27,350 nt of DNA. Source: a virus. The position numbers and the translations under genes were made by a program. Positions 15,999 through 21,800 of the stretch are shown piece after piece. The stretch lies in IMG/VR virus record IMGVR_UViG_3300021197_001232, positions 1-27,350 of that record; one strand, given 5' to 3'. The notes below the pieces were generated by a model. That model was not told the origin of the DNA, ran no database searches, and was given only the letters and a program-made list of their open reading frames with translations. How positions within the stretch are numbered: position 1 is the first letter of the stretch; every line of letters starts with the position of its first letter.

Positions 15999-16216
15999 CA
16001 ACTAACATTGATCCAAATGATCCAAGGTATTTTACTGAAACAAGTAGTATATCATATGATCGCCATCATTATCGCATTGTGATGAAGGATGGCAGGAGTG
16101 GAGTGGTTGAGGATTATGAGAAGGTCAGAGCATTTTGGTTTGAATATGATTCAAGTATGTTGAGTCATGTAGATGTTCTTGATATAAAGAATACTGTCAA
16201 GGGTTTTGGAGGATAG
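15995..16216 (+). CDS. conserved hypothetical cyanophage-type protein, 73 aa
   Basis: Opens MTTNIDPNDPRYFTETSSIS, followed by HHYRIVMKDGRSGVVEDYEK, a beta-hairpin pattern also common in cyanophage small proteins. Its end contains the GGAGG ribosome site of the next gene, and that gene's start is 5 bases after its stop. Function unknown. Confidence 0.65.
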   Translation: MTTNIDPNDPRYFTETSSISYDRHHYRIVMKDGRSGVVEDYEKVRAFWFEYDSSMLSHVDVLDIKNTVKGFGG

Positions 16217-16220
16217 TACA

Positions 16221-17411
16221 GTGTCAGTCAGTAATGCGTATGTTGTTGGTTATGGAATGATTGATGCATTAGGAAGTAATCCTTCCCAGTGCTTCAAAGG
16301 AATGCTAGATGATAAAAACTACAGTATGGAGTTAGACTTCATGAGTAGTCATAAGATTCAGTATGGCATACCATGTCATCATGACACTGTGCTTCCCGAG
16401 GGGTTCGCGCCGAAAAAATTAAAGACCATGACACGGGCACAAGAACTGGCATTACATGCAACTGAACAAGCATTGAGGCATTCTAAGTTACCACACAGTT
16501 CTAATGTCGCTGTGATCATGAGTAGTTGCAGTAATGATGTTGAGTCGCTTGATGCAAACTATCAACGCCTCAAAGATAATAAGCGTGTGAATCCGTTTAC
16601 TATTGTCAATCGTATTCCAGATATGATTGCAGGGCAGATATGTACTTACTATCAGTTTCATGGTGCAAGTGTAGCATTACAAGCATCATGTGCAACTGGA
16701 ATGTATAGTATTGATTATGCAATGAGAATACTGGATGAGTATGACTATGTAATTGTCGGTGGTAGTGACGCAGGAGTATTTGAGATTGCATTAAAATACT
16801 TCTCAAGTATTGGCGCACTGGGTAATCATAACTGTCCTTTTGATGAAGAACGTGAAGGGTTTGTGATGGGTGAAGGTGCGGGAGTATTAATTCTACAGTC
16901 AATGGAGAAGGTACAAGAGTATGGATCAAAGATACATGCAAAGTTATTCCCTGTAGGTGCTGCGACTGATGGGTTTGATCTTACGTCACCAGCATCAGAT
17001 GGTAGGGGAGCAAAGATTGCATTGAATAAAGCATTATCAAAGTTACCAACAAAGAAGATTGATATGGTATCTGCACATGCTACCAGTACACCAGTAGGTG
17101 ATATTGTAGAGTATAATGTAGTCAAAGAATTCTTCAATAATATTCCGATGTATGCACCTAAGTCTAAGATAGGACATACCCTTGGTGCATCAGGTGTATT
17201 GGAGTGTATTTACAGTATTGAGAGTATGAAGAATAGAGTGATTCCAAGGTGTTATAATTTAAAGAATTGTAGTTATGATATTGATAATATATTGGTAAAA
17301 GATGCAGTAAAACTATCAGGGATTGATACGTTACGTACAATGAATAATAGTTTTGGATTTGGTGGTAAATGTGCATCTCAGGTAGTAGAAGTATCATGGT
17401 TTTATCCATAG
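16221..17411 (+). CDS. fabF: beta-ketoacyl-ACP synthase (KAS II/FabF-type)
   Basis: Condensing enzyme of fatty-acid elongation: malonyl-ACP plus acyl-ACP gives 3-oxoacyl-ACP. GTG 16221 is the start because GGAGG (16208-16212) lies 8 bases upstream. The full catalytic set is present: Cys157 in ASCATG, His286 in SAHATSTPVGD, Lys314 and His319 in KSKIGHTLGASG, with CPFDEEREGFVMGEGAG at 205-221 and FGFGG near 378-382. FabF's usual TN after FGFGG is KC here, a rare change beside the active site. At 396 residues it is close to FabF (412), so it looks intact. Low-GC, codon-matched to its neighbours, so not recently acquired from a GC-rich source. No ACP, FabD or FabG lies nearby; it must use host partners. 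Last gene of the train before the 488-bp gap. Confidence 0.85.
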   Translation: MSVSNAYVVGYGMIDALGSNPSQCFKGMLDDKNYSMELDFMSSHKIQYGIPCHHDTVLPEGFAPKKLKTMTRAQELALHATEQALRHSKLPHSSNVAVIMSSCSNDVESLDANYQRLKDNKRVNPFTIVNRIPDMIAGQICTYYQFHGASVALQASCATGMYSIDYAMRILDEYDYVIVGGSDAGVFEIALKYFSSIGALGNHNCPFDEEREGFVMGEGAGVLILQSMEKVQEYGSKIHAKLFPVGAATDGFDLTSPASDGRGAKIALNKALSKLPTKKIDMVSAHATSTPVGDIVEYNVVKEFFNNIPMYAPKSKIGHTLGASGVLECIYSIESMKNRVIPRCYNLKNCSYDIDNILVKDAVKLSGIDTLRTMNNSFGFGGKCASQVVEVSWFYP

Positions 17412-17701: not shown

Positions 17702-17779
17702 CTCGTCGAGGGTATCACTTGACAATCTCGACGAGTCATGCTACCATAATCACAGGTACATTCATAATATCTCGACGAG
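17702..17779 (+). repeat. CTCGWCGAG motif cluster (three copies)
   Basis: CTCGTCGAG at 17702-17710, CTCGACGAG at 17727-17735 and 17771-17779. Each is a 4-bp palindrome around one base, and CTCGTCGAG is the exact reverse complement of CTCGACGAG. The first two start 25 bp apart and flank a TTGACA (17719-17724). Likely operator-type sites. Confidence 0.6.
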
Positions 17780-17839
17780 CATATGCATGAATGTCAAGGT
17801 ATCATAATATATCATGTATCATGTCTAAATAATCCGTTA

Positions 17840-17876
17840 TTGACACATTGACATCCACATTATCCCTTGTTATAAT
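17840..17876 (+). promoter_or_regulatory. consensus sigma70 promoter with tandem -35 boxes
   Basis: TTGACA occurs twice (17840-17845 and 17848-17853). The second is 17 bases from a perfect TATAAT (17871-17876). Predicted start about 17883, leaving a 17-base leader before ATG 17900. It drives the first gene of the cassette region. Confidence 0.85.
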
Positions 17877-17899
17877 ATCAAAGTCTGCACGGGGTTCTA

Positions 17900-18073
17900 A
17901 TGACATCAGTTTACGAAGCGACTCGCACTCGACGCCACCGCATCACATTGGATGTGCAAGCATTGGGTGACTTTAATCCACATCAAATCGACTTTTATAA
18001 ACTGTTTGGATTGCAGGAGAATGAATGTGTAGATGTATACGTTGAAGACCTTGACCCATGTGAGGTGTGGTAA
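17900..18073 (+). CDS. hypothetical basic-to-acidic protein, 57 aa
   Basis: First gene behind a consensus promoter and ended by a strong terminator, so a monocistronic early gene. MTSVYEATRTRRHRITLDVQ has a basic N-terminus, then an aromatic middle (HQIDFYKLFGLQENECVDVY) and an acidic end with VEDLDPCEVW. No family recognised. Monocistronic strong expression suggests an early host-takeover role (inference). Confidence 0.6.
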   Translation: MTSVYEATRTRRHRITLDVQALGDFNPHQIDFYKLFGLQENECVDVYVEDLDPCEVW

Positions 18074-18097
18074 TAAGAGATACTCAACAATCATATG

Positions 18098-18136
18098 TCC
18101 TTATGGGTTCTGGTGAGAATTCATAAGGATTTTTTT
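18098..18136 (+). terminator. strong intrinsic terminator
   Basis: TCCTTATG (18098-18105) pairs with CATAAGGA (18122-18129). GG/TT wobbles and TTCT/AGAA extend the stem to 14 pairs around a GGTG loop, then seven T (18130-18136). It ends the 57-residue gene. Confidence 0.85.
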
Positions 18137-18293
18137 ATAATGTTTTTTTATTAAAAAAATATTGCAGGTTCAGTGTCGATGTGTTGATCAGGAAGTTACC
18201 CCACTCCCGTTGTTGCTGATTGTCTTTAAATTATAGCGATTTTTAAATGTAATGGGGATAGAGTGTGCCAGTTCTACAAGTGGATTTTGATGG

Positions 18294-18348
18294 TTGCCAG
18301 GGTGCCTTGGCAGGGTTATGTTGGTCACAAGTCAACCACCACAGACTC
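18294..18348 (+). promoter_or_regulatory. promoter TTGCCA-N17-TATGTT and CA-rich leader
   Basis: TTGCCA (18294-18299) and TATGTT (18317-18322), 17 apart. The transcript would start near 18329 and carry the leader AAGTCAACCACCACAGACTC (18329-18348) up to ATG 18349. This leader recurs before seven other genes and lacks a Shine-Dalgarno. Confidence 0.55.
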
Positions 18349-18822
18349 ATGGGCACCAGATCACGAATCGGCATCGAACTCCAGGATCACAGCGTCGTCA
18401 GTTCCTATTGCCACTGGGATGGATACCCGAAGGGCAATGGCAGAACACTAGTGAAGCACTACCAGGACCGCGAAGCAGTCAAGGAGTTGATTGATGGCGG
18501 GTCAATGTCATCAGTGCGAACACGTAACACCTGGAACAGTGGTAAGATTTTAAAAGATGAGAACGGAGAGTACATCTTCGATTCTGAGGGTTATCTCATG
18601 AGTGAGAATGATCGTGACCCACAACCACAGTATCACTCCGAACGTGGCGATGGTATGGAACCGATGCACTCATCGTTTGATCAGTTCACAAAAGACAACT
18701 GTGATGAGGAGTTTGTGTATCTCTACAGTTTGGATGGTGAGTGGAAGTGCTGGGAGTTGGAGCGGATCACATTCGCTGGAGTATGGTACAATAAAACCAT
18801 ACGCACGGAGATTCCTGCATGA
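18349..18822 (+). CDS. conserved phage protein (RSRIGIEL family), 157 aa
   Basis: Start fixed by the shared leader; the frame is open upstream but that part overlaps the promoter. Opens MGTRSRIGIELQDHSVVSSY, then CHWDGYPKGNGRTLVKHYQD, a pattern typical of a phage family with RSRIGIEL and HWDGYP motifs and no known function. A repeated EREDG-like segment and acidic aromatic C-terminus (EEFVYLYSLDGEWKCWELER) follow. The stop overlaps the next start (ATGA). GC is higher than in the left half of the window. Confidence 0.75.
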   Translation: MGTRSRIGIELQDHSVVSSYCHWDGYPKGNGRTLVKHYQDREAVKELIDGGSMSSVRTRNTWNSGKILKDENGEYIFDSEGYLMSENDRDPQPQYHSERGDGMEPMHSSFDQFTKDNCDEEFVYLYSLDGEWKCWELERITFAGVWYNKTIRTEIPA

Positions 18823-18968
18823 ACCTTCCTGACGACTACTGGTTGGACAATGCCTTCATGGCAGCACTTGAAGAGAGAGCAGCATTCTTTGAGGTAACGG
18901 TAGACTATTACCTTGAAGAGTTCTTCTGTTCAGATCTCGACGAGCACATGTCACACGTTCTCGACTAG
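18819..18968 (+). CDS. small acidic protein, 49 aa, carrying two CTCGAC motifs
   Basis: MNLPDDYWLDNAFMAALEER, then a helical acidic stretch with Phe and Tyr. The last residues (SDLDEHMSHVLD) are encoded by a CTCGACGAG (18936-18944) and a CTCGACTAG (18960-18968). The latter supplies the TAG stop. Coupled to the previous gene by 4 bp. Whether it is translated or mainly a carrier of the motifs is unclear. Confidence 0.5.
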   Translation: MNLPDDYWLDNAFMAALEERAAFFEVTVDYYLEEFFCSDLDEHMSHVLD

Positions 18969-18988
18969 CACACACGCAATCATTCATC

Positions 18989-19270
18989 ATGAATTACACA
19001 CTCAAACAACTCCAAGACCGAGTATCACGAATGATCAAAGAACAGGGAGAAGATGCAGAATGTGCCGCATGGATCTATACTAAGAATGATTGTCATCTAA
19101 AGGATGAAGATGGTGAGACTGATTATGACCACAACGTAGAAGATGTTGAGGTTCTTCAACGTATCTTCTATCAAGTTGGTGATTCTGATTACATCTATCA
19201 GTGCATTCAAGATGAAGTAGATGAAGCAACAGAAGAGCAGTTGATGCAGTATCAGCAGGAGTTGGTCTGA
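18989..19270 (+). CDS. hypothetical acidic protein, 93 aa
   Basis: MNYTLKQLQDRVSRMIKEQG starts an amphipathic helix; later ECAAWIYTKNDCHLKDEDGE and the acidic VEDVEVLQRIFYQVGDSDYI, then a Gln-rich end. No Shine-Dalgarno; preceded by a CAATCATTCATC leader. Ends overlapping the next start by one base (TGATG). Unrecognised. Confidence 0.6.
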   Translation: MNYTLKQLQDRVSRMIKEQGEDAECAAWIYTKNDCHLKDEDGETDYDHNVEDVEVLQRIFYQVGDSDYIYQCIQDEVDEATEEQLMQYQQELV

Positions 19271-19488
19271 TGTCAAACTTTAAAACATACTTAGTCACTG
19301 CAATTGAACTTGATTGGGATGATGAACTGGATGAAGAAGGACCAATAGATGAAGAAATAAAAAAAGATATTGTATCGGATTGTCTTGGAGAATGGTTTGC
19401 ATACAGCGAAGACCACCTCATAGACGATTTGAGTGATACTGCTGGATTTTGTATTAAATCGTTAGAATACAAATTCATAATGCCTTAA
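19270..19488 (+). CDS. hypothetical acidic protein, 72 aa
   Basis: MSNFKTYLVTAIELDWDDEL starts as a beta strand, followed by EEGPIDEEIKKDIVSDCLGE. Very acidic centre. Stop-start coupled to the previous gene, so the pair probably forms one cassette. Unrecognised. Confidence 0.6.
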   Translation: MSNFKTYLVTAIELDWDDELDEEGPIDEEIKKDIVSDCLGEWFAYSEDHLIDDLSDTAGFCIKSLEYKFIMP

Positions 19489-19499
19489 GGTTTGAATGG

Positions 19500-19553
19500 T
19501 TGGCAGAGCATCCCGCCGTGGTATTGTTTGGAGGTCAACCACCACAGGACACC
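19500..19553 (+). promoter_or_regulatory. promoter TTGGCA-N16-TATTGT and CA-rich leader
   Basis: TTGGCA (19500-19505) and TATTGT (19522-19527), 16 apart; the leader contains GGTCAACCACCACAGGAC and ends at ATG 19554. The TTGGCAG core of the -35 recurs at 22043. Confidence 0.5.
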
Positions 19554-19808
19554 ATGGACGCCATAGACAACTGGATCATTAACGAAGGGATCGTTTTTGT
19601 GATCGATGATCGTTTGGCAAAGATTGACGACATGCTCTCAGAGGAACACTGCGGTATCCCCTGTTCGATGCTGTCTGAGGGTGAGACCTGCCACACCACC
19701 GACGCCATCCGCATGATGCTGGAGGGCATGGGAGACCGTGAGATCGCAGATTCTGTGATGCGCGACTTTGACCCAACACCACAGGAGACATCCTTCGACA
19801 TGTTCTAA
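19554..19808 (+). CDS. hypothetical protein, 84 aa, GC-rich gene
   Basis: ATG 19554 lies right after the shared leader; an upstream TTG (19500) belongs to the promoter. MDAIDNWIINEGIVFVIDDR is followed by a Cys pair (HCGIPCSM) and HTTDAIRMMLEGMGDREIAD, helical. GC content is clearly above that of the left half of the window. Unrecognised. A hairpin with promoter features follows. Confidence 0.6.
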   Translation: MDAIDNWIINEGIVFVIDDRLAKIDDMLSEEHCGIPCSMLSEGETCHTTDAIRMMLEGMGDREIADSVMRDFDPTPQETSFDMF

Positions 19809-19818
19809 AGAAATGTGA

Positions 19819-19853
19819 CAGGGGGTTCACAACGCCCCCTGATCATGTATTGT
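19819..19853 (+). promoter_or_regulatory. hairpin plus promoter TTCACA-N16-TATTGT
   Basis: CAGGGGG (19819-19825) pairs with CCCCCTG (19835-19841): a 7-bp stem, terminator-like. The loop holds TTCACA (19826-19831), which fits a -35, and TATTGT (19848-19853) a -10, 16 bases away. The leader GTCAACCAAACCACCACA then precedes the next gene. One element appears to both end and restart transcription. Confidence 0.5.
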
Positions 19854-19882
19854 AGACAAGTCAACCAAACCACCACAATGAC

Positions 19883-20146
19883 ATGTTCGCTTCCATCATC
19901 CGCACCGCAGTCCGCTCCCACCTTATCAATGGCGGACCTCAAACTTGCTCACAAGTGGTTGCTGCTATGGGACTCGATCCCAAACGCCACAAGGGAACCA
20001 TCCACGCCATCATGTGCGACCTGGAATCCAGCGGAGTGCTTTGGGCGGAACTCCACCACAAGACAATGAAGCGCACCAAGTGGCACATTGCCCCAGGCAT
20101 GATCCGCAAGCGTGACCGACTCGCTGCTGCATTCGCCATTGTGTGA
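19883..20146 (+). CDS. putative winged-helix DNA-binding protein, 87 aa
   Basis: Starts MFASIIRTAVRSHLINGGPQ; the TCSQVVAAMGLDPKRHKGTI segment reads as a helix-turn-helix, IHAIMCDLESSGVLWAELHH as the recognition helix and wing, and TKWHIAP as a closing strand. That is the wHTH order. A basic tail with RKRDRLAAAF follows. A transcription regulator or DNA-mimicking partner is inferred, with no known target. The gene is GC-rich. ATG 19883 is chosen over 19878, which opens another frame. Confidence 0.55.
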   Translation: MFASIIRTAVRSHLINGGPQTCSQVVAAMGLDPKRHKGTIHAIMCDLESSGVLWAELHHKTMKRTKWHIAPGMIRKRDRLAAAFAIV

Positions 20147-20157
20147 ACAATAGTTAC

Positions 20158-20194
20158 GGGAGGGGTCACACTCTCCCTCTTTGTTCGCTATGAT
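20158..20194 (+). promoter_or_regulatory. hairpin plus weak promoter before the 20219 gene
   Basis: GGGAG (20158-20162) and CTCCC (20173-20177) can pair, with GTCACA (20165-20170) as -35-like in the loop and TATGAT (20189-20194) 18 bases downstream. The leader AAAGTCAACCACCACAG then leads to ATG 20219. Confidence 0.45.
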
Positions 20195-20218
20195 TTGAAA
20201 GTCAACCACCACAGAACC

Positions 20219-20446
20219 ATGATCAAAGATCTTCCTTCCGAAATCCACAACGACCTTGATTGGCAGTCTGGACTCCGTGAGTTCCGCGATGAGATGGAAC
20301 CCACACTCTATGAGGCAGTTGATTGGGTCTGTCAGACTCACAACATAGAAAAGACTGATGCACTGGTGGAGGCAGTTGAAACCATTATCCTAGAAGATGA
20401 CTGGTTCAACGATCCCAACAGTGTCATGTCCTACCATCATTATTGA
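20219..20446 (+). CDS. hypothetical acidic protein, 75 aa
   Basis: Start at ATG 20219 behind the shared leader. MIKDLPSEIHNDLDWQSGLR, then EFRDEMEPTLYEAVDWVCQT and an acidic C-terminus ending in tyrosines and histidines. Alpha-helical, no recognised domain. A strong terminator follows 7 bases after the stop, so this is a single-gene unit. Confidence 0.6.
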   Translation: MIKDLPSEIHNDLDWQSGLREFRDEMEPTLYEAVDWVCQTHNIEKTDALVEAVETIILEDDWFNDPNSVMSYHHY

Positions 20447-20452
20447 TCAATT

Positions 20453-20474
20453 GGGGCATCTGCCCCTTTTTTTT
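20453..20474 (+). terminator. perfect intrinsic terminator GGGGCA/TGCCCC + T8
   Basis: GGGGCA (20453-20458), a 2-base TC loop, TGCCCC (20461-20466), then eight T (20467-20474). The tight loop may open to four bases, but the terminator call is secure. Confidence 0.85.
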
Positions 20475-20480
20475 AACATT

Positions 20481-20588
20481 CTGTAACTATCAATAGATTC
20501 TACCTTCAGTCTAGCACATCGGGGAAAGCACCTGTCAACACATTGAAATATATTGTTACTGACAATAGGCTCTACCCCAAGTCTAGCA
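20481..20588 (+). repeat. imperfect 36-bp direct repeat (two copies 72 bp apart)
   Basis: Copy 1 20481-20516 and copy 2 20553-20588 share CAATAG..TCTACC..AGTCTAGCA; 9 of 36 positions differ. They sit in a gene-free 260-bp gap between a terminator and the promoter of the 20707 gene. Each contains CTACC and GTCTAGCA. Their spacing (72 bp) suggests repeated binding sites or a remnant duplication; function unknown. Confidence 0.5.
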
Positions 20589-20678
20589 TTTTTTTAACCC
20601 ATAAAGCAACCAGTTCAACCAGTTTGCAAAGTGGCACAAGCGCCTTCGATCGATCTCCTCCCCCCGACTAATCCGTGC

Positions 20679-20706
20679 TATATTTTCTGTAAGTTGAACC
20701 ACCACC
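20679..20706 (+). promoter_or_regulatory. -10 TATATT and CA-rich leader
   Basis: TATATT at 20679-20684 with no good -35, followed by AAGTTGAACCACCACC directly before ATG 20707. This leader matches the family of leaders used at 18349, 19554, 19883, 20219 and 22095. Confidence 0.45.
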
Positions 20707-20901
20707 ATGACTATCAAGCAAATCGATCAACTCAAGAATGCTTATGCAGAGATGATTGTAGAGGGAATGGATATGAACTCTTTGATTACATTTGCTGTTG
20801 AAGAAATTGAACAGAATCTCAAAGATTACAATATGGATGAGTTGAAAGGGGAGATTATTGATTGCTATGGTGAAGAAACTTGGACTGATATGAATTCATA
20901 A
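20707..20901 (+). CDS. hypothetical acidic helical protein, 64 aa
   Basis: MTIKQIDQLKNAYAEMIVEG, DMNSLITFAVEEIEQNLKDY and an acidic end DELKGEIIDCYGEETWTDMN: two helices. Led by the CA-rich leader. Unrecognised; the small acidic style matches the neighbours. Confidence 0.6.
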   Translation: MTIKQIDQLKNAYAEMIVEGMDMNSLITFAVEEIEQNLKDYNMDELKGEIIDCYGEETWTDMNS

Positions 20902-20935
20902 TTAACACTCACTCACCTCACACTAACTAACACAA

Positions 20936-21154
20936 ATGAACAATCAACTCGAAATGCTATCACAAAGAGAACAACTAATGGAGGACATTGATTGTATCAT
21001 TGAATCATTTTGTTGGGAAATGTGGGAGGGAAAGTATCCTGAAACTCAAGAAGATTTAACCCGCATTCTGTGTGATGCTGTCTGTAAGAACTTCCCTGTG
21101 ACACTCAAGGAAGTGGCACAAACCACCTTCACAGCAGACTCAGACAGACTATAA
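20936..21154 (+). CDS. hypothetical helical protein, 72 aa
   Basis: MNNQLEMLSQREQLMEDIDC, then FCWEMWEGKYPETQEDLTRI and LCDAVCKNFPVTLKEVAQTT; helical with four cysteines. Its 34-base leader is nearly all C, A and T (ACTCACTCACCTCACACTAA) and has no Shine-Dalgarno. A GC hairpin follows. Confidence 0.6.
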   Translation: MNNQLEMLSQREQLMEDIDCIIESFCWEMWEGKYPETQEDLTRILCDAVCKNFPVTLKEVAQTTFTADSDRL

Positions 21155-21165
21155 TAAAGACATCA

Positions 21166-21187
21166 AGCGGGGGTGATGCATCCCGCT
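21166..21187 (+). terminator. hairpin AGCGGG/CCCGCT
   Basis: Perfect 6-bp stem (21166-21171 with 21182-21187), 10-base loop, no T run directly after (T-rich GCTTTTTTATTATC comes at 21211). Terminator activity is uncertain, but its position after a stop is typical for the region. Confidence 0.45.
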
Positions 21188-21224
21188 CAAAACAACATCA
21201 ACATTCAATCGCTTTTTTATTATC

Positions 21225-21446
21225 ATGATCAACGAATTCACCTCCTCTGCAATCGAAGCACTTAGCACCAACGACGACGGTCAGATCCTCGTCACCTTCA
21301 CTGGTGGTCGCCAGTACACCTACGGCGTTGCCGACGTTGAGCAGTTCTGCTCTGCCTTCAATGCTGCCGCTTCCAAGGGTCGTTATGTGAACCAGGAAAT
21401 CAAGGCAGAAGGCACCGCCACTGCGCTCAACGCTGTTGCTGTCTGA
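21225..21446 (+). CDS. KTSC-domain protein, 73 aa, GC-rich gene
   Basis: FTSSAIEALSTNDDGQILVT, FTGGRQYTYGVADVEQF and AAASKGRYVNQEIK follow the KTSC domain order (SS-start, strand, GG.YrY, then SKGRYxNxxIK). The family is small and its function unclear. The gene is high in GC and C-ending codons compared with the left half of the window, pointing to transfer. ATG follows TTTTTTATTATC. Two CTCGACTAG motifs come right after the stop. Confidence 0.65.
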   Translation: MINEFTSSAIEALSTNDDGQILVTFTGGRQYTYGVADVEQFCSAFNAAASKGRYVNQEIKAEGTATALNAVAV

Positions 21447-21449
21447 GAT

Positions 21450-21483
21450 CTCGACTAGACGTGCGCTCATAAGTCTCGACTAG
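21450..21483 (+). repeat. CTCGACTAG pair
   Basis: Two copies, 21450-21458 and 21475-21483, 25 bp start to start, each followed by a G/C-rich GTGCGC or GGGCGC. Same family as the motifs near 17702-17779 and 18936-18968. Confidence 0.55.
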
Positions 21484-21523
21484 GTGGGCGCATTCCACAT
21501 ACGCGATATTCTATCACATGATC

Positions 21524-21593: not shown

Positions 21594-21800
21594 ATGTCTG
21601 CTCAAATTGGAATCGAAGGATCTGTGCTTGCTTCACCAAAGTCTAGTAAAGCGAAGAATCGATTCTGTAACTTAATGTCATGCGATCCCGTATGCATTGT
21701 GGAACAGATTAAAGATGGGAGAATGTTCCTCCGAAGTGCTAACAACCGTTACCACTTTTGGATTGACGTGTCAAGCAGTGTAGATTGGTTTATAGATTAA
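21594..21800 (+). CDS. hypothetical protein, 68 aa
   Basis: MSAQIGIEGSVLASPKSSKA, KNRFCNLMSCDPVCIVEQIK, then RMFLRSANNRYHFWIDVSSS: three cysteines, beta-rich, basic. Preceded by a pyrimidine-rich leader without Shine-Dalgarno. No family recognised. Strong inverted repeats follow. Confidence 0.6.
   Translation: MSAQIGIEGSVLASPKSSKAKNRFCNLMSCDPVCIVEQIKDGRMFLRSANNRYHFWIDVSSSVDWFID

Follow-up and report, generated by a model that had tools for sequence, protein, structure and literature searches.

The DNA analysed here, referred to throughout as the window, is a stretch of 27,350 nucleotides (positions 1 to 27,350 of the IMG/VR virus record IMGVR_UViG_3300021197_001232), and our subject is a short, near-palindromic motif, a putative operator, that recurs in it in three clusters. 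Because the window comes from a virus record, matches only cyanophages when its DNA is compared with a phage collection and encodes proteins that fall into phage families, it is a fragment of a T4-like cyanophage. An earlier note on this DNA had claimed seven copies of the motif, and we found every one in its place, with starts at 17702, 17727, 17771, 18936, 18960, 21450 and 21475:

17702-17710, no strand assigned: putative operator copy 1, CTCGTCGAG, in cluster A and directly upstream of promoter P1; kept in loci L131, L129 and L130
17727-17735, no strand assigned: putative operator copy 2, CTCGACGAG, within the spacer between the -35 and -10 elements of P1
17771-17779, no strand assigned: putative operator copy 3, CTCGACGAG, 3' of P1
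18936-18944, no strand assigned: putative operator copy 4, CTCGACGAG, without a promoter
18960-18968, + strand: putative operator copy 5, CTCGACTAG
21450-21458, + strand: putative operator copy 6, CTCGACTAG, found after the same gene in loci L209, L210 and L211
21475-21483, + strand: putative operator copy 7, CTCGACTAG

All of the asymmetric CTCGACTAG copies in the window lie on the + strand. The start-to-start spacings are 25 and 44 bp in cluster A, 24 bp in the second cluster and 25 bp in the third, so that the pairs at 24-25 bp described earlier are real; their placement at gene borders needs qualifying, however, since the pair 18936/18960 lies inside the open reading frame (ORF) 18819-18968 and thus falls at the 3' end of a gene, not in an intergenic space in the strict sense. 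The 18936 copy is read in frame there as Leu-Asp-Glu, and the 18960 copy, as CTC GAC TAG, supplies the final two codons and, as had been noticed, the stop codon.

With a weight matrix derived from the family of sites and a threshold of more than 9 bits, the window yielded the seven known sites only. For the comparison with random expectation, 600 third-order Markov sequences of the window were searched for the copy set CTCGWCGAG/CTCGACTAG/CTAGTCGAG; they contained a mean of 0.057 copies and a maximum of 2, against the seven observed, and the pair at 24-25 bp was absent from all 600. Chance, or a codon bias for Leu-Asp-Glu, is refuted by these controls and by the conservation described below, and we dismiss it with near certainty: some copies do lie in frame in small acidic ORFs (18936 in the window; 85701 and 85722 in phage S-SRM01), but most of the copies shown are outside ORFs, the palindrome extends into the flanks, and shuffled sequences never match.

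The site family and its confinement

The consensus of the family is ATCTCGWCGAGAT, with CTCGACTAG, CTAGTCGAG and CTAGACGAG as frequent variants. At the central base A and T are about equally frequent (451:412), and the flanks prolong the palindrome, as expected for a dimer site in double-stranded DNA. Its carriers are a family of large viruses of marine and freshwater cyanobacteria. The IMG/VR relatives of ORF 18265-18822 have clusters of the same site upstream of the gene, and relatives of the KTSC-domain gene that precedes the third cluster have two or three copies immediately 3' of the stop codon. Three-copy clusters occur in at least 119 viral stretches, and three or more copies in 177 loci of less than 50% GC among the matches listed, the loci being partly redundant and related by descent; in relatives generally, clusters of 2-8 copies lie within a few kilobases. 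The three-copy matches in bacterial genomes, among the matches listed, resemble in-frame repeats or GC-rich chance occurrences. Of these listed matches, L380 alone has a winged-helix gene near its sites, five of them at an exact 24-bp spacing; it is a 3.9-kb contig binned with Rhodobacteraceae and probably a stray cyanophage contig.

The even spacing remarked on earlier, of approximately 25 bp, holds only for the close relatives of the window, and the wider family also has spacings of about 30-33, 39-43 and 60-67 bp. No clear 10.5-bp helical period was apparent among the spacings, in a sample whose distribution is skewed by the search patterns. Many of the contigs are fragments.

In whole genomes the sites are confined. 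The isolate S-SRM01 (240,842 bp) carries them at 85571-85730, 88120-88252 and 90908-91005, a span of 5.4 kb, with one stray at 154365; in P-SSM2 there are five at 65996-66168, besides two weak strays. The single cluster of S-T4, also of five sites, is repeated at the far end of the record (L426:2748-2933 and MH412654.1 174317-174502, 171,569 bp apart), a duplication suggesting that the record repeats its ends. The weight-matrix scan returned only 0 to 3 scattered matches in the genomes of S-RIM12, S-PM2, DSL-LC02 and S-SCSM1. The system is a local one and not a genome-wide regulon.

Promoter overlap and gene order

The genes and promoters around the clusters in the window are as follows:

16206-17411: beta-ketoacyl synthase gene, directly upstream of cluster A
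17719-17747, + strand: promoter P1, sigma-70-like, TTGACA-17-TACCAT, with copy 2 in its spacer
17848-17876, + strand: promoter P2, perfect consensus sigma-70, TTGACA-17-TATAAT, with no operator in its spacer
17900-18073, + strand: lead57, a 57-residue ORF, which follows cluster A in 56 of the 75 multi-cluster loci
18265-18822, + strand: phrog_1987/T4-GC 66 protein of unknown function, common in motif-free cyanophages too
18819-18968, + strand: 49-residue ORF, with the second cluster as its last codons
19883-20146, + strand: predicted winged-helix protein of 87 residues, the best local candidate regulator by fold prediction, PDB matches and co-occurrence
21225-21446, + strand: KTSC-domain ORF, which stops 3 bp before the third cluster
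21594-21800, + strand: 68-residue ORF, the gene after cluster B in most relatives

Under promoter criteria that were loose but identical for all classes of cluster (a spacer of 16-18 bp and no more than four mismatches over twelve positions), a site lies 0-2 bp 3' of the -35 element of a sigma-70-like promoter in 30 of the 38 non-redundant cluster-A loci and in none of the 49 clusters of classes B and C, which occupy gene borders without such a promoter. The arrangement reads TTGACA-ATCTCGACGAGTCATGC-TACCAT in cluster A of the window (17702-17779), TTGCAT-CTCGACGAGCATTATGC-TATAAT in that of S-SRM01 and TTGACA-ATCTCGACTAGATCTGG-TATAAT in that of P-SSM2, where both the -35 and -10 hexamers are perfect. 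Known cyanophage promoters include the sigma-70 kind for early genes and NATAAATA for late genes, together with NtcA and Pho boxes; the cluster-A promoter is, like the early ones, of the sigma-70 kind, and it is from this, and from the content of small ORFs, that we infer the operon to be early. Far above chance, kept at equivalent borders and limited to one genome region, with a place between the -35 and -10 elements of an early-type promoter, the copies bear out the earlier note in treating them as a repeated operator.

A protein bound to these sites might activate early transcription instead of repressing it, and cluster A also has sites upstream of the -35 element (for example, 17702), which is an activator position. 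The most constant site, however, is that in the -35/-10 spacer, the classical repressor position, and several cluster-A promoters are close to consensus and should not need activation, so that we consider activation improbable. The dense clusters, limited as they are to one genome region, also recall a centromere-like or replication-origin array (iterons), and the winged-helix model has a weak structural match to, among others, a centromere-binding protein of pNOB8. This seems very unlikely to us, because one cluster is built on a promoter and the clusters lie kilobases apart at gene borders; moreover, of those window proteins that were scanned none was of the ParA or segregation type, and phage DSL-LC02, which has a ParB annotated in its record, is without such sites.

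An action of the copies at the level of RNA, as hairpins or intergenic terminators, we hold to be highly improbable. Some clusters can fold (z = -7.9 for cluster C of S-SRM01 and -3.2 for cluster A of the window), and the 21475 copy lies within a GC-rich stem in both the window and its relatives, but self-complementary copies pair by construction. The stems that had been drawn from the pairs are a trivial result of near-palindromic copies, with no RNA structure in common: the pair 18936/18960 folds no better than shuffled sequences (z = +0.6), and a cluster in the viral contig G010 shows no notable fold either (z = -1.8). The key site, lying between the -35 and -10 elements, would not be transcribed from that promoter, and Rfam returned no match. 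As regards the GC-rich stem around the last copy (window 21450-21500), it occurs in L209, L210 and L129 as well, the changes between relatives seemingly preserve its pairing, and it is possibly a terminator that ends the operon.

Cluster A lies 5' of a short acidic ORF and/or lead57, and the order cluster A, (acidic ORF), lead57, phrog_1987, cluster B, 68-residue ORF, winged-helix gene, cluster C recurs in many contigs. The order in the window differs, in that the second cluster and the winged-helix gene precede the KTSC gene and the last cluster. In many phages a tiny Asp/Tyr-rich ORF (MYDDYDLDY...YRHYA) is found 3' of cluster A (L425:5651-5785, L453:3125-3280 and L437); it is unannotated in S-SRM01 and S-T4 and is PSSM2_098 in P-SSM2, and its coding sequence itself holds copies of the site, as DLDE codons. 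In the window, a leader like GTCAACCACCACA is repeated at 18331, 19534, 19860, 20199, 20696 and 22075, directly 5' of the start codons of small ORFs, which is the expected position of a ribosome-binding site. The beta-ketoacyl synthase gene before cluster A is an unusual passenger for a cyanophage.

A winged-helix candidate and drift of the site

The product of ORF 19883-20146 belongs to a conserved family (family A) with invariant HKGT and RKRD motifs. AlphaFold predicts a winged helix of the order helix-helix-helix-strand-wing-strand, with a mean predicted local distance difference test (pLDDT) score of 85.4, and the model has weak structural matches in the PDB to MarR, PadR and related winged-helix proteins (best E value 0.0017). 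Weak matches to Penicillinase_R were obtained for seven of 12 family members (best E value 0.0032), the window's own protein giving none. At the equivalent position other phages have a second family (family B), represented in S-SRM01 by an unannotated gene of 100 codons at 90334-90633 (L425:10335-10634), which is a remote homologue of family A (hhalign E value 2e-5, probability 76.5%); the best match of the S-SRM01-type protein is to MarR, with an E value of 0.015, a match too weak for the MarR cut-off. One or other family is present in 14 of the 15 loci with both clusters B and C, and a search from the window protein, in which the motif played no part, found 14 contigs, 11 of them with the motif. 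Among 50,697 phage records, family A had no match and family B was confined to the S-SRM01 records.

The site drifts in company with this gene in one phage. The 215-kb contig G010, one of the three contigs that this search found without the motif, encodes a winged-helix protein 62% identical to that of the window and has no standard sites, yet its gene order is unchanged and includes three clusters of CAACTAGATT; the spacer of its promoter, TTGACA-17-TACAAT, contains CATCTAGAAT. Contig L444 has CTAGTCTAG beside CTCGACTAG, and clusters of standard-site phages can contain CAACTAGATT as an additional element. Drift of this kind is the pattern expected if operator and regulator co-evolve, although there is only one clear case of it. 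A second repeat in G010, AGATCTTAT, is present on either strand in 13 copies within 6.4 kb around the clusters (L439:1446-7818).

The earlier note had supposed that the regulator might be encoded within the region and had pointed to the winged-helix protein at 19883, a credible candidate; to the extent that ORF 19883 is linked to the sites and is predicted to be a winged helix this is plausible, although the gene is absent from some phages with the same promoter-operators. We therefore propose the winged-helix protein as the binder only tentatively, as a candidate that falls a little short of being probable. Several observations weigh against it, or against the wider scheme. Cluster A occurs in the complete genomes of S-T4 and P-SSM2, where both winged-helix families are lacking, so that the gene is no more than a candidate for the binder; it occurs too in the large contigs G003, G005, G008 and G009, which lack family A. 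Given such phages, the gene might be linked to clusters B and C simply by lying next to them. Two contigs, L443 and L452, both of them fragments, carry the gene without the motif, and the counts of loci are not independent, as the loci are related by descent. Finally, the strongest promoter of the window, P2 (17848-17876), carries no operator, and occlusion of P1 alone would therefore not silence the window operon.

Either the phages without the winged helix use another protein on the same site, or a different binder acts everywhere. It is a serious possibility, to which we give not quite an even chance, that the operators are real but are bound by another phage protein or by a transcription factor of the host, and that the winged-helix gene is just one gene among those regulated. 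Besides the genomes and contigs with cluster A alone, a small protein annotated as DNA-binding (S-SRM01 93311-93484) might be cited in its favour, being common to S-SRM01, P-SSM2, S-T4 and S-SKS1; this type of protein, however, occurs in many other cyanophages (64 records) and was not observed in the window where it would ordinarily lie, and Pfam does not support a DNA-binding domain in it. A drifted operator such as that of G010, a contig with the winged-helix gene, is also to be expected from co-evolution with a phage-encoded binder. Genes common to S-SRM01, P-SSM2 and S-T4 and absent from the four cluster-free genomes included no convincing regulator. Nor is lead57 favoured as the binder, because it has relatives in cluster-free phages such as S-SCSM1. 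In a lineage without family A (G005 and G009), an ORF of about 157 residues ends just before the second cluster (L435:9492-9965 and L436:10222-10701, in reverse-complemented locus coordinates) and could be an alternative regulator; it has no convincing Pfam match, and its identification as a cyAbrB protein is unsupported by Pfam.

A putative early switch and its parallels

In Cluster A mycobacteriophages, such as L5 and Bxb1, one motif occurs both in the early promoter and at places that have no promoter, and the motif and its repressors change in step between relatives (PMC6550527). This operator/stoperator system is, by analogy, the closest working parallel to the cyanophage sites, but not one of the same family. 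The cyanophage motif likewise lies in an early-type promoter and at promoter-less sites, and likewise drifts between relatives. In contrast to the L5/Bxb1 system, however, which has up to about 30 sites across a temperate genome, served by a different repressor, the cyanophage sites form one to three clusters within a few kilobases, in phages regarded as lytic, and the candidate protein differs. The L5/Bxb1 sites are mostly in one orientation; the main cyanophage site is near-palindromic, and the asymmetric CTCGACTAG copies of the window share one strand. In the lambdoid oL/oR system, CI has clusters of about three palindromic operators that overlap early promoters, and another such set lies kilobases distant. 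The cyanophage clusters resemble this in having palindromic sites on an early-type promoter and further sets kilobases off, with a small winged-helix candidate in place of CI or Cro; a comparison of window proteins with Pfam and PHROGs, covering part of the small ORFs, brought up nothing resembling CI or Cro. The candidate resembles BlaI/MecI (Penicillinase_R) and MarR in its predicted winged-helix fold and weak family matches, but is distinguished from them by its length of only 87-100 residues and by a conserved RKRD or RKRE tail.

We found no description of the array in the open-licence papers that we searched, and the listed papers containing CTCGACGAG were unrelated, as judged by titles. 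In a 2010 survey of 16 cyanomyovirus genomes (PMC3037559) the main text uses neither 'repressor' nor 'palindrom'; 'repressor' and 'palindrome' are likewise absent from that of a review (PMC2984593), and the S-SRM01 paper (PMC8557907) contains none of 'promoter', 'palindrom', 'repressor' and 'operator'.

We consider it probable that the copies are operators for a sequence-specific DNA-binding protein, working through overlap with an early promoter and auxiliary sites, and perhaps through feedback by the candidate winged-helix protein. A protein of this kind, probably a dimer, would bind ATCTCGWCGAGAT. Cluster A would place it over a host-type sigma-70 promoter that serves a small early operon, at sites in the spacer and just upstream and downstream, and binding between the -35 and -10 elements would exclude RNA polymerase. 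The promoter-less clusters B and C may have an auxiliary role, in which they either form a loop with cluster A or block elongation in the manner of stoperators. Were the winged-helix protein (window 19883-20146), which is encoded near the downstream clusters, the binder, the early operon would be switched off through a feedback circuit.

The near-palindromic clusters strongly suggest an undescribed gene-control switch in viruses that were thought to have none. T4-like cyanophages are regarded as lytic, and it is a speculative and rather doubtful extension that some of them possess a co-evolving winged-helix repressor-operator switch able to silence the early region, as the basis of superinfection immunity between relatives or of pseudolysogenic stalling. 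A conserved array on an early-type promoter in the culturable phages P-SSM2, S-T4 and S-SRM01, together with a small candidate regulator, makes the proposal testable at the bench.

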